DNA of 64,000 bases. Origin: Maribacter algarum (ex Zhang et al. 2020) (GTDB lineage: Bacteria; Bacteroidota; Bacteroidia; Flavobacteriales; Flavobacteriaceae). Of this stretch, positions 40,240-45,422 are shown one piece after another; position 1 is the stretch's first letter, and each line of letters starts with the position of its first letter. The position numbers and the translations under genes are program-made. Below the pieces are notes generated by a model, which was not told the DNA's origin, ran no database searches, and saw nothing but the letters and a program-made list of their open reading frames with translations. The DNA lies in assembly GCF_005885635.1 (NCBI RefSeq), contig NZ_VATY01000001.1, forward strand, positions 1,426,001-1,490,000. Reading direction: 5' to 3'.

Positions 40240-40456
40240 CTAAGGAACCAGCGGCGAAATACCACAAATTCCTAGTCCTACTAACAAATAAACACGGGCA
40301 ATAATAAAAAGTATTTTGGCTGTTTTGGGCTTTTTCTTGCGTAAAATAAGTCCTATAACTGAAAGGATGATTCAGGTGAAAAAATCAGAAAATCACCAAT
40401 AGGGCGATATACAAATTGCCCATATCGTTTCCTTGATTTAGTAAAAAGAGTCTCAT
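40240..40456 (-). pseudogene. Decayed third copy of the small membrane-protein family
   Basis: The ATG at 40456 reads MRLFLLNQGNDMGNLYIALL then VIF and stops. Shifting one frame gives a stop interrupting IILSVIGLILRKKKPKTAK, which continues ILFIIARVYLLVGLGICGI and ends at the TAG 40240-40242. This is clearly related to the intact gene at 40459-40665 (LIIGLVIRKKNSKAAK, IIAGVYLLVSLGICG). One frameshift and one internal stop disable it. It is the last member of a tandem set after the radical SAM gene. Confidence 0.75.
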
Positions 40457-40458
40457 TT

Positions 40459-40665
40459 TCAGCTAATTAAACTTCCACAAATACCTAAACTTACCAAAAG
40501 ATAAACGCCAGCTATGATGTAAAAGACTTTGGCAGCTTTTGAATTCTTTTTTCTAATTACTAAACCTATGATAAGAAACAAGAGTGCAGGGCCAAACATT
40601 ACCAATACAATCAGAACTACGATTCCATCTAAATTACCAACTTCTAAAGGAATTAATTTACCCAT
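40459..40665 (-). CDS. Small two-helix membrane protein, family member 1
   Basis: This 68-residue protein has two predicted transmembrane helices (about 18-38 and 48-66) separated by a basic RKKNSKAAK loop, and ends LGICGSLIS. It is paralogous to the next gene: both share an I/L-P-L-E start, a basic middle and an LG-[IL]-CG end. The ATG lies 20 bases after the stop of the 40686 gene in the minus direction. Function is unknown; the operon context suggests a membrane partner of the radical SAM or Lgt-like proteins. Confidence 0.7.
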   Translation of the reverse strand: MGKLIPLEVGNLDGIVVLIVLVMFGPALLFLIIGLVIRKKNSKAAKVFYIIAGVYLLVSLGICGSLIS

Positions 40666-40685
40666 AACATTAAGTCAATATTATA

Positions 40686-40886
40686 TTATCCCAATCCGCA
40701 CAGTCCTGCTCCGATTAAGGTACAGATTCCTGCAGCTATCAAAACTTTTTTAGCAGGCTTTTTTTGCTTTGCAATTGCTAAAATAATAGTTATTAGTAAT
40801 AAAACAGGAACCAACAATAGCACCATAAAGCCAGCGCCTTCCATATCGCTTATGTAGATTTCTAAAGGGAGCGCTGCTGTAATCAT
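40686..40886 (-). CDS. Small two-helix membrane protein, family member 2
   Basis: This 66-residue protein has an LPLE-type start, a hydrophobic helix (about 19-38), the basic KQKKPAKK turn, and a second helix (48-64) ending LGAGLCGLG. Its ATG overlaps the TGA stop of the radical SAM gene by four bases (ATGA), a classical coupling arrangement, so it is probably translated by the same ribosomes. Similar to the 68-residue neighbour; no known family. Confidence 0.72.
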   Translation of the reverse strand: MITAALPLEIYISDMEGAGFMVLLLVPVLLLITIILAIAKQKKPAKKVLIAAGICTLIGAGLCGLG

Positions 40887-42277
40887 AAGGCTTCTTCTTG
40901 CAATTCTTTTAACCGTTCAATCTTATCATCTCTGTAAAACAGATTCATGGTTTCAAAAGGAATGATTTTATAATCCTTATTTACAATATGTACACATGAT
41001 TTTTTTATGGCTCGCACATCAAAATTATGAGCGTCTATAAATTGCATGATGATGATTCGAAACAGATTATCATAACCCAATTCGGGAGCATCAATTTCTG
41101 GAAGACAACACATAATACTTTTCAAGTTCTCGGAGGCTTTTTCTACGGAATTTCCTGTACTGAAGAGCTCAATCATTTTGCCATGCAATTGCTCGTCTTG
41201 CTCGTAAATAATAGTGTTCTTTCCTTCGTTCAATAAGTCATCAGGATTGATATATCGTGTTAAAGGACTCACCTCACCTCCAAGTTTCAGGGCATAGGCC
41301 ATTACCAAAGCATCTGGATTACAAGGAACTGGAATCAAATCATCTGCTTCAAAAATAGGAGATTGTTCCAAGATGTTTCTGCGCACTTCGGTCAGCGTAA
41401 TTCGATTTTCGTCGACTTCGAAATTTTCTAAACGACCCGCGATTTGAGTGGGTTGAAAAGTTACACCGCGAATGCATTTTTGTTTGAGGGCAAAGTCAAT
41501 GGTGCTTCCCATTTCATGATCGTTCAATCCTTTTTGCAGGGTTACTACCAAAGTGGTTGAAAGATTGAGTTTGTTGAGGTTTTCGATAGCTTTTAGACGT
41601 GTATCGGCTAAATCTGCTCCGCGAAGGGTTTGTAAGACTTCGTTGTCTAAAGAGTCGAACTGTAAGTAAATTTCAAAGTCAGGGGCATAGGTCGCCAAAC
41701 GTTCTGCGAAAGCAAAATCGTTGGCGATTTTAATTCCATTGGTATTGACCATCAAATGCCGAATCGGCAAGGACTTGGCATAGTCCAAAATCTCAAAAAA
41801 CTGTGGATGAATCGACGGTTCCCCACCACTAATTTGTACCACATCGGGTTCGCCTTCGTTTTTGACAATAACATCCAACATCTTTTTAATTTCTTCGAGA
41901 GTGCGATGTCTTCCATAGGTTGGAGAGGAACCAGCATAGCAGGTTGGGCAAGTCAAATTACAGCGATCGGTAACTTCAACTACCGTTAAGCAAGAATGCT
42001 GCTCATGTTCAGGGCATAAACCACAATCATATGGACAGCCATAATCGGTTTTTGTATTAAATTTTTTGGGATATTCTGAAGCTTTATTATAATTGCGAAT
42101 GTTCTTGTAATATTCGATATCATCTGCAATAAGCACCTTACTTCTGCCATGCTCCTTGCAGTTTTTTAACATGTATACCTTGTCATTTTCGAAGATTATT
42201 TTGGCATCGACACGACGCAAACAATCGGGACAAAGACTTAAGGTAAAATCATAATAGGTGTAATTTCTTTCCGGCAT
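40883..42277 (-). CDS. Multi-cysteine radical SAM enzyme (tetraether synthase/MJ0619-like)
   Basis: This 464-residue protein has a TIM-barrel radical SAM core with the CX3CX2C cluster C106/C110/C113 in DRCNLTCPTCYAG and the GGEP motif at 151-154. The N-terminal 100 residues carry extra cysteines: CPDC (16, 19), C40-x2-H43 as KNCKEHG, and CPYDCGLC plus C96 (81, 85, 88, 96). The C-terminal part has PCNPDALV and a CC pair in SIMCCLPE. This layout (rubredoxin-like N-terminus, additional iron-sulfur cysteines) is that of the archaeal tetraether lipid synthase and MJ0619-type enzymes, which make C-C bonds at unactivated carbons or methylate. It overlaps the Lgt-like gene by 29 bases. The bacterial substrate is unknown. 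Confidence 0.8.
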   Translation of the reverse strand: MPERNYTYYDFTLSLCPDCLRRVDAKIIFENDKVYMLKNCKEHGRSKVLIADDIEYYKNIRNYNKASEYPKKFNTKTDYGCPYDCGLCPEHEQHSCLTVVEVTDRCNLTCPTCYAGSSPTYGRHRTLEEIKKMLDVIVKNEGEPDVVQISGGEPSIHPQFFEILDYAKSLPIRHLMVNTNGIKIANDFAFAERLATYAPDFEIYLQFDSLDNEVLQTLRGADLADTRLKAIENLNKLNLSTTLVVTLQKGLNDHEMGSTIDFALKQKCIRGVTFQPTQIAGRLENFEVDENRITLTEVRRNILEQSPIFEADDLIPVPCNPDALVMAYALKLGGEVSPLTRYINPDDLLNEGKNTIIYEQDEQLHGKMIELFSTGNSVEKASENLKSIMCCLPEIDAPELGYDNLFRIIIMQFIDAHNFDVRAIKKSCVHIVNKDYKIIPFETMNLFYRDDKIERLKELQEEAL

Positions 42278-43019
42278 ATAGAATTCCTTTTCGGAGGTTT
42301 TTGTTGTAGTACAACCAACAAATTAAGCATAATAGTTGAATGCTACTTAGACCGTGTATTAAAAAGGTATTGGGTTTTAAGAACTCTATAAAGAAGCGAA
42401 AGCCAAAATAGGAAATCATGAAAATTTTGAACAGCATTCCATTTTCAAATAGATTTGGTTGTCGCCGAAGTTGTTTTATGAATACGAAAAGAAAGAGTAA
42501 AAACACAATTTCATACAAAGCAATAGGATGTCTCAGAAAACCATCTCCCAAGTCCATTCCAAAAAAAGAATTGGTTTCAATGCCATAGGTAAATTCTTTG
42601 ATTCCGGCTAAGAAACATCCGATACGCCCGATAATAATTCCGAAGATAATAGGAAGGGTAAACAAATCTCCTGAAGACTTTTTTTCACTAATAAGTTTTT
42701 TGGCTAGTTCAACGCCCAATAATCCACCGAACAGTCCACCCATAATGGTTTTATTGTTTAAAATGGATAACCACCCTTGTTCGTAATGCAATACGGGATT
42801 CTCGAAAAAAGCGATTAGGCGAGAGAAAAATAACGCTCCGAAAATGGCGCCAATAATAATAGAGAGTCGATTGTTGGACGAAATTGAATCCGTGCTTTTC
42901 TTTCTAAGAATAACATAATATCGAAATGCCATAAAGAAGGCGAGATACTCAAGCACCAAATGCATATTGACTTTTATGTCAAATACGATGGGCTCGAATG
43001 GAAGTTCTATTCCTGCCAT
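42249..43019 (-). CDS. Prolipoprotein diacylglyceryl transferase (Lgt)-like membrane protein, divergent
   Basis: This 256-residue polytopic protein has about seven helices and Lgt-type landmarks: GGLFGGLLGVE, IGRIGCFLAG, LRHPIALYE, and SYFGFRFFIEFLKP. True Lgt enzymes usually have a His before the GGL and an Asn in GRxGNF; here these are Met (IMGGL) and Cys (GRIGC), so catalytic diacylglyceryl transfer may be altered. The conserved Arg of the RHPxxLYE and GFRFFIEF blocks are kept. The start overlaps the propeller gene by 13 bases, and the end overlaps the radical SAM gene by 29. It may be a lipid-handling enzyme working with that radical SAM. Confidence 0.75.
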   Translation of the reverse strand: MAGIELPFEPIVFDIKVNMHLVLEYLAFFMAFRYYVILRKKSTDSISSNNRLSIIIGAIFGALFFSRLIAFFENPVLHYEQGWLSILNNKTIMGGLFGGLLGVELAKKLISEKKSSGDLFTLPIIFGIIIGRIGCFLAGIKEFTYGIETNSFFGMDLGDGFLRHPIALYEIVFLLFLFVFIKQLRRQPNLFENGMLFKIFMISYFGFRFFIEFLKPNTFLIHGLSSIQLLCLICWLYYNKNLRKGILYAGKKLHLL

Positions 43020-44113
43020 TCAGCAATAAACAAATTCGTATCCCGTGTACCGCCATTATTTCTGTTGCTTGAAAAGGCTAAGTACTTTCCATTATTGGAA
43101 AAAACGGGGAAAGCATCAAAGGTTTCGCCGTGTGTAACACGTTCTAGATTCTTCCCATCAATATCAATGAAATAGAGGTTAAATGGAAATCCCTTTTCTG
43201 CTTCAAAATTACTTGAGAAAAGTATTTTTTCTCCTGAAGGATGAAAAAACGGACTCCAATTTGCATTGCCTAAAAAGGTTAATTGTTTCAAATCAGAACC
43301 ATCGGCACTGCAGATAAAAAGTTCCATTTCGGTAGGTTCCACGAGACCTTCAGCCAATAAGTCTTTGTACTTTTTGATGGCTTCAGGAGTTTTTGGTCGT
43401 GAGGCTCTAAAAATTAGTTTTGTCCCATCAGGAGAGAAAAAAGCCCCTCCGTCATACCCTAATTCATCCGTAATTTGTTTGACATCAGAACCATCTAAGT
43501 TCATGGTGAATAATTCCAAATCTCCACTTCTGTCCGAAGTAAAAACAATCTTATCACCTTTTGGAGAAACCGTTGCCTCGGCATCATACCCTTTTTCGTT
43601 GGTTAATTGAGCCGTGATATTTCCATCTAAATCCGCCACAAAAATGTCGAAGGAATCATAAACGGGCCAGACGTAATTTCCGTTTTTGCGTAAAGGCGCT
43701 TCAGGACATTCCTTATCGACCAAATGTGTTGAACCGTATACATAATGTTTGTTATCTGGTAGAAAATAAGCGCAAGTGGTTCGCCCGAACCCTGTGCTAA
43801 TCATGGGTGGTTTTGAGTCTTCAAAATTTTCTTCGATATTCATCAAGAACATTTGATCGCATTCCATGCCCCAAGCTTCGTTGTTCGATTGAAAAATCAT
43901 CTGCTTGTCATCCCAACTCCAGTAGGCTTCCGCATTATCTCCTCCAAAAGTGATTTGCCGAATGGACTTAAAATATTTCTCCTCCGGATAAATAAGTGTA
44001 TCGCTTCCTGCCATTAAAGAAGTTTCTTTTTCTGCTGTGGGCTCTGTTTTTTTTGGTTCAGATTTACAGCTTATAAAGGCAATTATTACGAGAGCTGCTA
44101 ACAATTTGTTCAT
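43007..44113 (-). CDS. WD40-like/TolB-type beta-propeller lipoprotein
   Basis: The 368-residue lipoprotein starts at the ATG 44113 (MNKLLAALVIIAFISC, lipobox ISC); a longer frame from 44164 is not preferred. The body has repeats of the PD40 type: AYWSWDDKQMIFQSNN, AEATVSPKGDKIVFTSDRSG, AFFSPDGTKLIFRASRP, NANWSPFFHPSGEKILFSSN and AFPVFSNNGKYLAFSSNRN. These form a TolB/DPP-IV-N-terminal-like propeller, usually a protein-binding surface. It overlaps the Lgt-like gene, making it the first gene of the four-to-six gene operon, and is divergent from the M28 peptidase. Confidence 0.85.
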   Translation of the reverse strand: MNKLLAALVIIAFISCKSEPKKTEPTAEKETSLMAGSDTLIYPEEKYFKSIRQITFGGDNAEAYWSWDDKQMIFQSNNEAWGMECDQMFLMNIEENFEDSKPPMISTGFGRTTCAYFLPDNKHYVYGSTHLVDKECPEAPLRKNGNYVWPVYDSFDIFVADLDGNITAQLTNEKGYDAEATVSPKGDKIVFTSDRSGDLELFTMNLDGSDVKQITDELGYDGGAFFSPDGTKLIFRASRPKTPEAIKKYKDLLAEGLVEPTEMELFICSADGSDLKQLTFLGNANWSPFFHPSGEKILFSSNFEAEKGFPFNLYFIDIDGKNLERVTHGETFDAFPVFSNNGKYLAFSSNRNNGGTRDTNLFIAEWQE

Positions 44114-44201
44114 AGGATGCGTAATTTTACTTGATAATCGAGAATTAAAATGCTCTGAGGCCAACCCCGAGCTTGCTTATGTAAAACTACGTCCAAAAAA
44201 G

Positions 44202-45422
44202 ATGAAAAATATTCTACCACTCCTTTTTTTATTGACAATACTTTCCTGTAAAACCGAAAAACCGAAAGCAGTTTCACTTAAAGAGGATGTGGCTATTCTG
44301 GCAAATGATAGTTTACGTGGTCGTGAAACGGGTAGTTACGGAGAACTTATGGCAGCTGGATATCTACAACAACGTATGGAAGATATTGGGCTTCAACCTA
44401 AAGGAAAGAAAGGCACTTATTTGCAAACCTTTACTTTCAAACCTAGAACGGACCCACATTCTGAAGTACAATTCGTTACCGGAGATAGTACCATTACAGG
44501 TACTAATGTTATCGGGTACATTGATAATCGAGCTGAAAAAACAGTTATCATTGGAGCGCATTACGACCACCTAGGTTTGGGTGGTGAAGGGTCTTTGTAT
44601 CGGGAGGGCGCAGCGATTCATAACGGCGCTGATGATAATGCAAGTGGCGTAAGTGTTATGCTGAAATTAGCCAAAAGATTACAAGATTCCCTAAACGGAA
44701 GCAACTACCTTTTTGTGGCTTTTTCTGGGGAAGAAATGGGGCTTCTTGGCAGTAATTATTTTACCAAAAACCCAACGATTGATTTGTCAAAAGCGAACTA
44801 CATGATCAATATGGATATGGTGGGAAGACTTCGAGAAGATAAAACCTTGTCCATAAGTGGAACGGGAACAACCCCCATCTGGCCACAGGTTTTAAACAGT
44901 ACGAATACAGGATTTAAATTGGTGTTGAATGAATCGGGAATCGGCCCTTCCGACCATACTTCCTTTTACTTGCAAAACATTCCTGTTTTACATCTTTTTA
45001 CAGGCCAACACGAGGATTATCATAAACCTACTGACGATTATGAAAAATTGAATTATGAAGGAATGGGAATGATTTCAAACTACATTTATGAAATCATAAA
45101 GGAGTTGGATGATGACCCGAAACTCACATTTAAAAAGACAAAAAACGAGAGTGAGGAAGTCCCTCGTTTTAAAGTGGCCTTAGGCGTTGTTCCTGATTAT
45201 CTGTTTGACGGAAAAGGAATGCGAATTGATGGAATAAGTGATGATAAGCCGGCGCAAAAGGCAGGCCTGAAAAAAGGCGATGTTGTTATTCAGCTAGGGG
45301 ATAGTCTGGTGACTGATATGATGAGCTATATGCGAGCGCTTTCGACTTTTGAAGAAGGAAACGTTACCAAAGTTATCATAGACCGTGAGGGCAAGAAGGT
45401 TGAGGTTGGGGTGAAGTTCTAA
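44202..45422 (+). CDS. M28 zinc peptidase lipoprotein with PDZ domain
   Basis: The 406-residue lipoprotein starts at ATG 44202 (lipobox LSC16). Zinc ligands are in the expected order: H120 in GAHYDHLG, D144/D145 in HNGADDNASG, the general-base pair E177-E178 in FSGEEMGLLG, D205 in NMDMVG, and a His in the HEDYHKPTDDY block. The C-terminal ~80 residues form a PDZ domain (GMRIDGISDDKPAQKAGLKKGDV). It hydrolyses peptides on the periplasmic or outer surface. It is divergent from the propeller lipoprotein by 88 bases. A promoter for the next gene lies inside its 3' end. Confidence 0.9.
   Translation: MKNILPLLFLLTILSCKTEKPKAVSLKEDVAILANDSLRGRETGSYGELMAAGYLQQRMEDIGLQPKGKKGTYLQTFTFKPRTDPHSEVQFVTGDSTITGTNVIGYIDNRAEKTVIIGAHYDHLGLGGEGSLYREGAAIHNGADDNASGVSVMLKLAKRLQDSLNGSNYLFVAFSGEEMGLLGSNYFTKNPTIDLSKANYMINMDMVGRLREDKTLSISGTGTTPIWPQVLNSTNTGFKLVLNESGIGPSDHTSFYLQNIPVLHLFTGQHEDYHKPTDDYEKLNYEGMGMISNYIYEIIKELDDDPKLTFKKTKNESEEVPRFKVALGVVPDYLFDGKGMRIDGISDDKPAQKAGLKKGDVVIQLGDSLVTDMMSYMRALSTFEEGNVTKVIIDREGKKVEVGVKF

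Follow-up and report, generated by a model that had tools for sequence, protein, structure and literature searches.

A conserved cassette of Bacteroidota combining an LGT-family protein, a tetraether synthase-like radical SAM enzyme and tiny cysteine-containing membrane proteins

Gene organization of the operon

A stretch of 64,000 nucleotides from Maribacter algarum (ex Zhang et al. 2020) (contig NZ_VATY01000001.1, positions 1,426,001 to 1,490,000), here called the window, carries an overlapping operon with genes for an LGT-family protein, a radical S-adenosylmethionine (SAM) enzyme resembling tetraether synthase (Tes) and two tiny membrane proteins. According to the list of open reading frames (ORFs), the order of transcription on the minus strand is a propeller lipoprotein, the LGT-like integral membrane protein (256 aa; 42249 to 43019), the radical SAM enzyme (464 aa; 40883 to 42277), assigned to the Tes/TrsS superfamily by Pfam, NCBIfam and PDB matches, and two-helix membrane proteins of 66 aa (40686 to 40886) and 68 aa (40459 to 40665). 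The C termini of the latter two, ...LIGAGLC-GLG and ...LVSLGIC-GSLIS, each contain a cysteine that we propose as an acceptor. A first-pass annotation of the window had described overlaps of 13 (propeller/LGT-like), 29 (LGT-like/radical SAM) and 4 bases (radical SAM/66-aa gene), all in one direction, and the ORF coordinates confirmed this. The two tiny genes are separated by 20 bases.

Co-occurrence and linkage of the two enzyme genes

Among 392 Bacteroidota genomes, the radical SAM gene was found in 31 (E 1e-60 or better) and the LGT-like gene in 32 (E 1e-25 or better). Both enzymes were present in 31 genomes, the radical SAM gene alone in none and the LGT-like gene alone in one (G017), in which the same radical SAM alignment gave no match at E 1e-10. 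Fisher's test gave a p of 3.6e-45 for the co-occurrence; it takes both searches as covering the same 392 genomes and treats these, regardless of relatedness, as independent, which they are not. In two genomes (G034 and G272), the radical SAM and LGT-like genes reside on different contigs, and therefore neighbourhood alone does not explain the association. In the family to which M. algarum belongs, the radical SAM gene is patchily distributed (21 of 149 genomes). The LGT-like gene of G017 (L141:4929-5774) has no radical SAM partner and no obvious tiny protein nearby; it is possibly a relic or has a different use.

Gene order was compared in loci L005 to L114. L005 to L084 are the best 80 of 387 confirmed relatives, with flavobacterial titles except for L031 ("Bacteroidia bacterium"), and L085 to L114 come from the Bacteroidota genome set, in which species may recur; a second draw of Bacteroidota genomes overlapped the first and added no independent count. 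Leaving out the window itself (L087) gives 109 loci, and leaving out L098, which runs into a contig end, gives 108. The LGT-like gene was present in 105 of the 109 loci (in L062 as fragments only), always on the same strand as the radical SAM gene (105/105). The two genes overlapped or were at most 200 bases apart in 92 loci; overlaps were counted in 82 of 105, which is an upper bound since ORF starts were taken as the longest possible. Four loci remain: in L102 the LGT-like gene was 2.3 kb upstream (visible in L120), in L114 it was about 1 kb downstream (visible in L129), and in L101 and L112 it was on a different contig. Thus, conservation of the pair extends across Bacteroidota, with LGT-like, radical SAM, tiny protein as a widespread gene order, and the LGT-like and radical SAM genes are a functional unit.

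Mean pairwise distances over 38 loci were 0.14 for the radical SAM protein, 0.32 for the LGT-like protein, 0.13 for Dus and 0.10 for LepA; although patchily distributed, the radical SAM protein shows much stronger conservation than its LGT-like partner, at a level close to that of Dus and LepA. In Hyunsoonleella ulvae (L062:16-6000), the LGT-like gene looks interrupted: it lies in separated pieces about 3.5 kb apart upstream of an intact radical SAM gene.

Tiny membrane proteins with a C-terminal cysteine

The last hydrophobic helix of the small membrane protein encoded after the radical SAM gene mostly ends with [LF]-G-x-C and a few further residues. A fixed rule was used to search for such proteins: two hydrophobic stretches, a positive loop, and, within the last 20 residues, a Cys preceded at -1 or -2 by Gly, Ser or Ala. 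A protein obeying this rule was encoded downstream of the radical SAM gene in 101 of the 108 loci. Control windows of equal size downstream of seven other genes of the same loci contained one in only 2 of 357 cases, and random control windows in 0 of 364; the two positive windows both follow Dus (L015 and L016), and their ORFs are unlike relatives of the tiny proteins. On both strands of the 64-kb window, only the two tiny genes obeyed the rule. When the Cys was not selected for, the small hydrophobic ORF that comes first after the radical SAM gene still had a Cys among its last 20 residues in 95 of 97 loci, a count unaffected by the Gly/Ser/Ala selection. The seven loci without a rule-passing protein downstream of the radical SAM gene are L101, L106 to L110 and L114; in L114, such a protein is encoded after the LGT-like gene. 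These comparisons show a cassette of three parts: the LGT-like protein, the Tes/TrsS-type radical SAM enzyme and at least one tiny cysteine protein (usually one or two).

In 54 non-redundant tiny proteins, the residue preceding the Cys was Ile in 15, Val in 11, Thr in 9, Leu in 6, Ala in 6 and another in 7; Gly stood at -2 in 50 of 54, which is partly a product of the -1/-2 requirement of the rule. The median net charge of the 17 residues before the last helix was +4, and a median of 6 residues followed the Cys (n = 144 for both). By the positive-inside charge rule, the Cys is predicted to face the outside, where Lgt works. A Pfam scan of 12 tiny proteins gave no accepted family, with sub-cut-off matches for three, and an NCBIfam scan of eight gave no matches. 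The first-pass annotation had considered the tiny proteins part of a scaffold; they do belong to the cassette, but with their near-invariant Cys they look more like a substrate than a scaffold.

The radical SAM enzyme is a member of the Tes/MJ0619 superfamily

The radical SAM protein matched Pfam Radical_SAM and, at its N terminus, the zinc ribbon HMPTM. In the NCBIfam scan, the radical SAM (seleno)protein TrsS (NF045646) came first with 329.9 bits over nearly the full length (cut-off, 490), followed by Tes with 292.4 bits (equivalog cut-off, 450). TrsS was the top profile for all three cassette radical SAM proteins scanned, and all three scored below its cut-off. The best sequence match in the PDB was 7TOL (MJ0619, GDGT-MAS; E 2.1e-69), and 7tol and 7tom were the top structural neighbours of the AlphaFold model. 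From this model, which is of low confidence (mean predicted local distance difference test [pLDDT] score, 59.8), the fold match alone is used; it was unusable for asking whether C319, C390, C391 and C428 meet, with low confidence at residues 316 to 325, 340 to 402 and 412 to 427. These data support membership in the Tes/MJ0619 superfamily. The likeness to tetraether synthase and MJ0619 proposed in the first-pass annotation thus holds, with the top profiles being TrsS and Tes and not unrelated families. An additional 28 distant matches (20 to 39% identity) were found on viral contigs.

The cysteine arrangement that had been noticed in the protein is present in full. The rubredoxin site consists of C16 and C19 (CPDC) and C40-x2-H43, and its spacing, C-x2-C-x20-C-x2-H, is identical to that of C9, C12, C33 and H36 in MJ0619. 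It is followed by the N-terminal cluster motif C-x3-C-x2-C (C81, C85 and C88 in CPYDCGLC) with a His after two further residues (H91), and by the radical SAM motif C106-x3-C110-x2-C113. The C-terminal region NFDV..C(V/I)H..IPF is also Tes-like. In 27 aligned radical SAM proteins, C16, C19, C40, C96, C106, C110, C113 and C319 were invariant; C428 was found in 26, with the truncated sequence of L098 as the exception, C81, C85 and C88 in 22, being absent from three actinobacterial and two haloarchaeal relatives, and C390 and C391 in 21 each.

Outside these motifs, the conserved cysteines are C96, C319, C390, C391 and C428. C428 is shared with MJ0619, whereas C96 and C319 align with Ile and Ser of MJ0619, and C390 and C391 are further extra cysteines compared with Tes; like the LGT and tiny-protein partners, they set the cassette enzyme apart from GDGT-MAS. 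C96, C319 and C428 are common to methyltransferase-linked relatives found on plasmids. In the C-terminal region, C438, M439, C456 and C470 of MJ0619 (numbering derived from C9 and the pairwise alignment) correspond to I410, M411, C428 and E442. We infer that C438, C456 and C470 are ligands of the C-terminal [Fe4S4] cluster of MJ0619, for which the published account, in its accessible text, names Met439 alone. A cysteine at position 442 is replaced in the aligned Bacteroidota members, which also distinguishes them from TrsS; the residue is Glu except for Asp in three and Ser in two.

The LGT-like protein is a paralogue of Lgt

The Lgt-like identity given in the first-pass annotation was borne out by a Pfam LGT match of 79.7 bits (gathering score, 24.9; E 2.8e-22). 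The protein was below the cut-off of every NCBIfam Lgt model matched, with 42.8 versus 118.9 bits for the lgt equivalog, and its structural model (mean pLDDT, 74.4) had Escherichia coli Lgt (5azb) as the sole fold match at E 0.001 or better. R132 and R208 align with R143 and R239 of E. coli Lgt, described there as critical (PMC4728403; this and the papers below are cited from the parts of their text that were accessible), and are kept in 21 of 21 aligned proteins. The motif RHPxxLYE is also kept, with an MHP variant in actinobacteria, whereas C135 stands where E. coli Lgt has N146. These data support an LGT paralogue. A canonical Lgt is encoded elsewhere in the genome (G000:C1:119625-120518; E 3.2e-54).

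Relatives outside the Bacteroidota genome set

A tblastn search of plasmid records with the radical SAM protein matched 10 records, seven of which were inspected for gene neighbourhood. A plasmid record of Persicobacter, a member of the Bacteroidota, has the same three genes. Plasmids of Mycobacterium branderi and M. avium carry LGT, two small membrane protein genes and the radical SAM gene in a row, and in a Nonomuraea record, LGT and the radical SAM gene are accompanied by a gene for a Pro-rich membrane protein. The actinobacterial small proteins, five in total, all terminate in G-x-C-T-G-[LI]-N-P and a few residues. When the LGT-like protein was used for the plasmid search, Persicobacter was the sole match at E 1e-8 or better; since this search misses actinobacteria, their LGT genes were reached via the radical SAM gene. 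The cassette is thus known from some Bacteroidota and a few actinobacteria (three records).

In the relatives from Mycolicibacterium, Salinirubellus and Haloarcula halophila, a methyltransferase gene adjoins the radical SAM gene and no LGT gene is annotated in the stretch shown. These three inspected relatives are located near redox proteins, one of them with CcdA. On the Mycolicibacterium vanbaalenii plasmid (L133:5299-10339), a 36% identical radical SAM protein is encoded together with a methyltransferase, CcdA, a disulfide oxidoreductase and a second radical SAM protein, perhaps a TrsS-like cluster. Methyltransferase adjacency (L133, L134 and L137), regarded here as a TrsS trait on the basis of the relatives' neighbours and not of the family definition, was seen in none of the recurring, identified cassette neighbour clusters, most single neighbours not being identified. 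An unrooted tree of 27 radical SAM proteins places those of actinobacteria on a long branch shared with the methyltransferase-linked relatives (support, 91), within which the order is poorly supported (47). The partnership with LGT and tiny proteins is either old or was assembled twice, and both favour a real functional link.

Propeller lipoprotein and other neighbouring genes

The gene upstream of the LGT-like gene encodes a TolB-like PD40 propeller lipoprotein on the minus strand, which extends from 43007 to 44164 if the TTG of the longest ORF is used; the ATG start of MNKLLAALVIIAFISC is at 44113 (43007..44113), the end coordinate adopted in the first-pass annotation. The propeller had been regarded as part of a scaffold. 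However, it was directly upstream of the LGT-like gene in only 14 of the 80 flavobacterial loci and was therefore rejected as a cassette member and judged a neighbour. It was found in 29 of the 80 flavobacterial stretches, every time with an M28 peptidase gene, and in 15 of these 29 it was located beyond the radical SAM gene (for example, in L050, L055 and L080); in neighbourhoods of the other Bacteroidota examined, no propeller was labelled. Membership of the propeller in the cassette is thus improbable. In the window, it forms with a divergent M28 peptidase gene (44037 to 45422) a region from 43007 to 45422, and the two, which co-occur in the same 29 stretches, are probably a separate unit of their own. 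In Maribacter litopenaei (L045), the genes for the M28 peptidase, the propeller and a TonB-type receptor are in pieces and the LGT-like and radical SAM genes are whole; this may be a sequencing error.

Besides the cassette and flavobacterial synteny genes, the clusters recurring in at least 3 of 21 neighbourhoods were a short-chain dehydrogenase (5) and an ABC-transporter ATPase (3). In two divergent cassettes (G121, L129:9368-11573; G156, L130:4784-6941), proteins of the ICMT/phospholipid-methyltransferase family and DUF4395 proteins are encoded between the radical SAM and LGT-like genes.

Proposed function of the cassette

Our favoured reading, to which we assign a probability of about 0.38, is that the Cys of the tiny proteins is lipidated by the LGT-like protein and that the lipid is modified by the radical SAM enzyme. 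The tiny proteins would then be uncleaved mini-prolipoproteins, in which a positively charged cytoplasmic loop, a hydrophobic helix and the [LF]-G-x-C box could mimic a type II signal peptide; with a small residue at -2 and the Cys, the likeness extends to the lipobox. Ordinary lipoprotein processing is not expected because the -1 residue is usually Ile, Val, Thr or Leu, and in contrast to a signal peptide, these proteins have more than one helix and carry the Cys at the C-terminal end of the last one. The LGT-like protein, which retains both critical arginines of E. coli Lgt, would transfer a glycerolipid from phosphatidylglycerol to this Cys or to a nearby acceptor. The radical SAM enzyme, like Tes, would act on lipid alkyl chains from the cytoplasmic side and might yield either an altered donor lipid or cross-linked chains on the lipidated protein. 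The different set of C-terminal cysteines suggests an outcome other than plain Tes coupling.

Several findings weigh against lipidation of the tiny proteins followed by radical modification of the lipid. A classical lipobox has Ala, Gly or Ser at -1, and this pattern fits just 8 of the 54 non-redundant tiny proteins. L055 and L060 lack a Cys in the first small ORF that follows the radical SAM gene; another small protein nearby passes the rule. In L106 to L110, a membrane protein of 75 to 80 residues with a terminal Cys is encoded between the LGT-like and radical SAM genes; that of L106 passes the rule, whereas those of L107 to L110 (...SG[YF][IV]C) end with Cys yet fail. In L101 (genome G034), no tiny protein was found near either enzyme gene. 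Distances of the radical SAM and LGT-like proteins correlated with 0.93 over 104 loci. In the subset of 38 loci in which Dus and LepA are also present, the value was 0.86, compared with 0.85 for radical SAM/Dus and 0.85 for Dus/LepA; the correlation is no higher than that of unrelated genes and reflects common descent only. The actinobacterial radical SAM proteins group apart from those of Bacteroidota. With respect to the enzymes, the His of the HGGL segment, equivalent to His103 of E. coli Lgt, is absent from 21 of 21 aligned LGT-like proteins. None of the H103A/N/Q/R/Y variants of E. coli Lgt complements, and His103 is described as essential (PMC4728403). Since its equivalent is missing, thiol transfer by the LGT-like protein cannot be assumed. 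Finally, two positions of the presumed Tes cluster cysteines (C438 and C470) lack Cys in the radical SAM protein. In GDGT-MAS, the C-terminal cluster is thought to form a bond to a substrate carbon (PMC9433317), and the altered ligand set therefore calls for caution in assuming Tes chemistry; with I410 and E442 at these positions, the C-C coupling suggested for the operon in the first-pass annotation cannot be transferred as it stands.

The missing His also bears on a different explanation, since the HGGL motif of E. coli Lgt has been proposed to bind the peptide (PMC4728403). If no peptide is modified, the radical SAM enzyme could couple or alter acyl chains while the LGT-like protein transfers diacylglyceryl from one lipid to another or to a small acceptor, and the tiny proteins would serve as subunits or chaperones. 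The relationship to Tes, the closest characterised relative of the radical SAM protein, agrees with such a lipid-only pathway, as do the ICMT/phospholipid-methyltransferase family and DUF4395 proteins of G121 and G156. However, a subunit is unlikely to conserve little besides a single Cys at a helix end, and no membrane-spanning lipids were found reported for these genera in the literature text available, which is a weak negative. We regard this pathway as a serious contender, if somewhat unlikely. Chain coupling could also be combined with lipidation: the LGT paralogue would lipidate the uncleaved Cys, after which the radical SAM enzyme would join the alkyl chains of this lipid either among themselves or with a lipid in the other leaflet. 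Flavobacteria and related bacteria would thereby acquire a lipid that is anchored to a protein and perhaps spans the membrane. This more elaborate scheme appears unlikely to us.

Small, variable and often duplicated genes beside a radical SAM gene, encoding proteins with a Cys near the C terminus, are also reminiscent of ribosomally synthesized and posttranslationally modified peptides. The radical SAM enzyme would then modify the C-terminal Cys region of the tiny precursors, and the LGT-like protein would anchor the product. We consider this quite improbable: by the charge rule alone, the Cys is predicted to be outside, whereas the enzyme is presumably cytoplasmic; the nearest characterised relative works on lipids; and no protease was identified among the clusters recurring in at least 3 of 21 neighbourhoods (most single neighbours were not identified), the ABC-transporter ATPase being present in three of these neighbourhoods. 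Slightly less probable still is small-molecule or metal/selenium chemistry by a member of the uncharacterised TrsS branch. The top TrsS profile in all three members scanned, the redox proteins (in one case CcdA) near the three inspected methyltransferase-linked relatives, and C96 and C319, shared with these relatives and not with MJ0619, speak for it, but the scores of the same three members are below the TrsS cut-off and the constant partners are LGT-family and membrane proteins, not a methyltransferase. That the genes are unrelated neighbours, or that the LGT-like protein is a second plain lipoprotein transferase, is very improbable. The adjoining propeller does resemble a chance neighbour, but nothing favours such an explanation for the pair: the two genes co-occur without linkage in two genomes, the genome has its canonical Lgt, and the LGT-like protein is below the NCBIfam Lgt cut-offs.

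Relation to known systems and implications

The 456 bacterial Tes homologues reported from a search that included the Fibrobacteres-Chlorobi-Bacteroidetes group (PMC8941075) may include the cassette radical SAM protein. Lloyd et al. (PMC9433317) describe bacterial tetraether synthase relatives in organisms not known for biphytanyl chains, and Zeng et al. proposed for such relatives a role, untested, in the formation of branched glycerol dialkyl glycerol tetraethers. The bacterial membrane-spanning lipid synthase Mss couples fatty acids (PMC11868695) and is likened to the cassette enzyme by its description only. In titles and abstract openings, with most subscription papers outside this scope, no published description of the cassette was found; PMC8939145, whose accessible text mentions a diacylglyceryl transferase and radical SAM, concerns other proteins.

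The cassette seems to represent an undescribed route for the attachment or alteration of membrane lipids. One branch of tetraether synthase relatives gains a partner enzyme without which it was not detected in any of 392 genomes, and a candidate substrate of about 65 residues, whose single cysteine can be tracked by mass spectrometry, turns an orphan into a testable system. If the favoured reading, lipidation of the tiny proteins and radical modification of the lipid, is true, bacterial lipid or lipoprotein maturation would gain a second type of LGT reaction as well as a radical step. Even with another product, the branch is set apart from true Tes, which is relevant where Tes-like genes serve as markers of membrane-spanning lipids.

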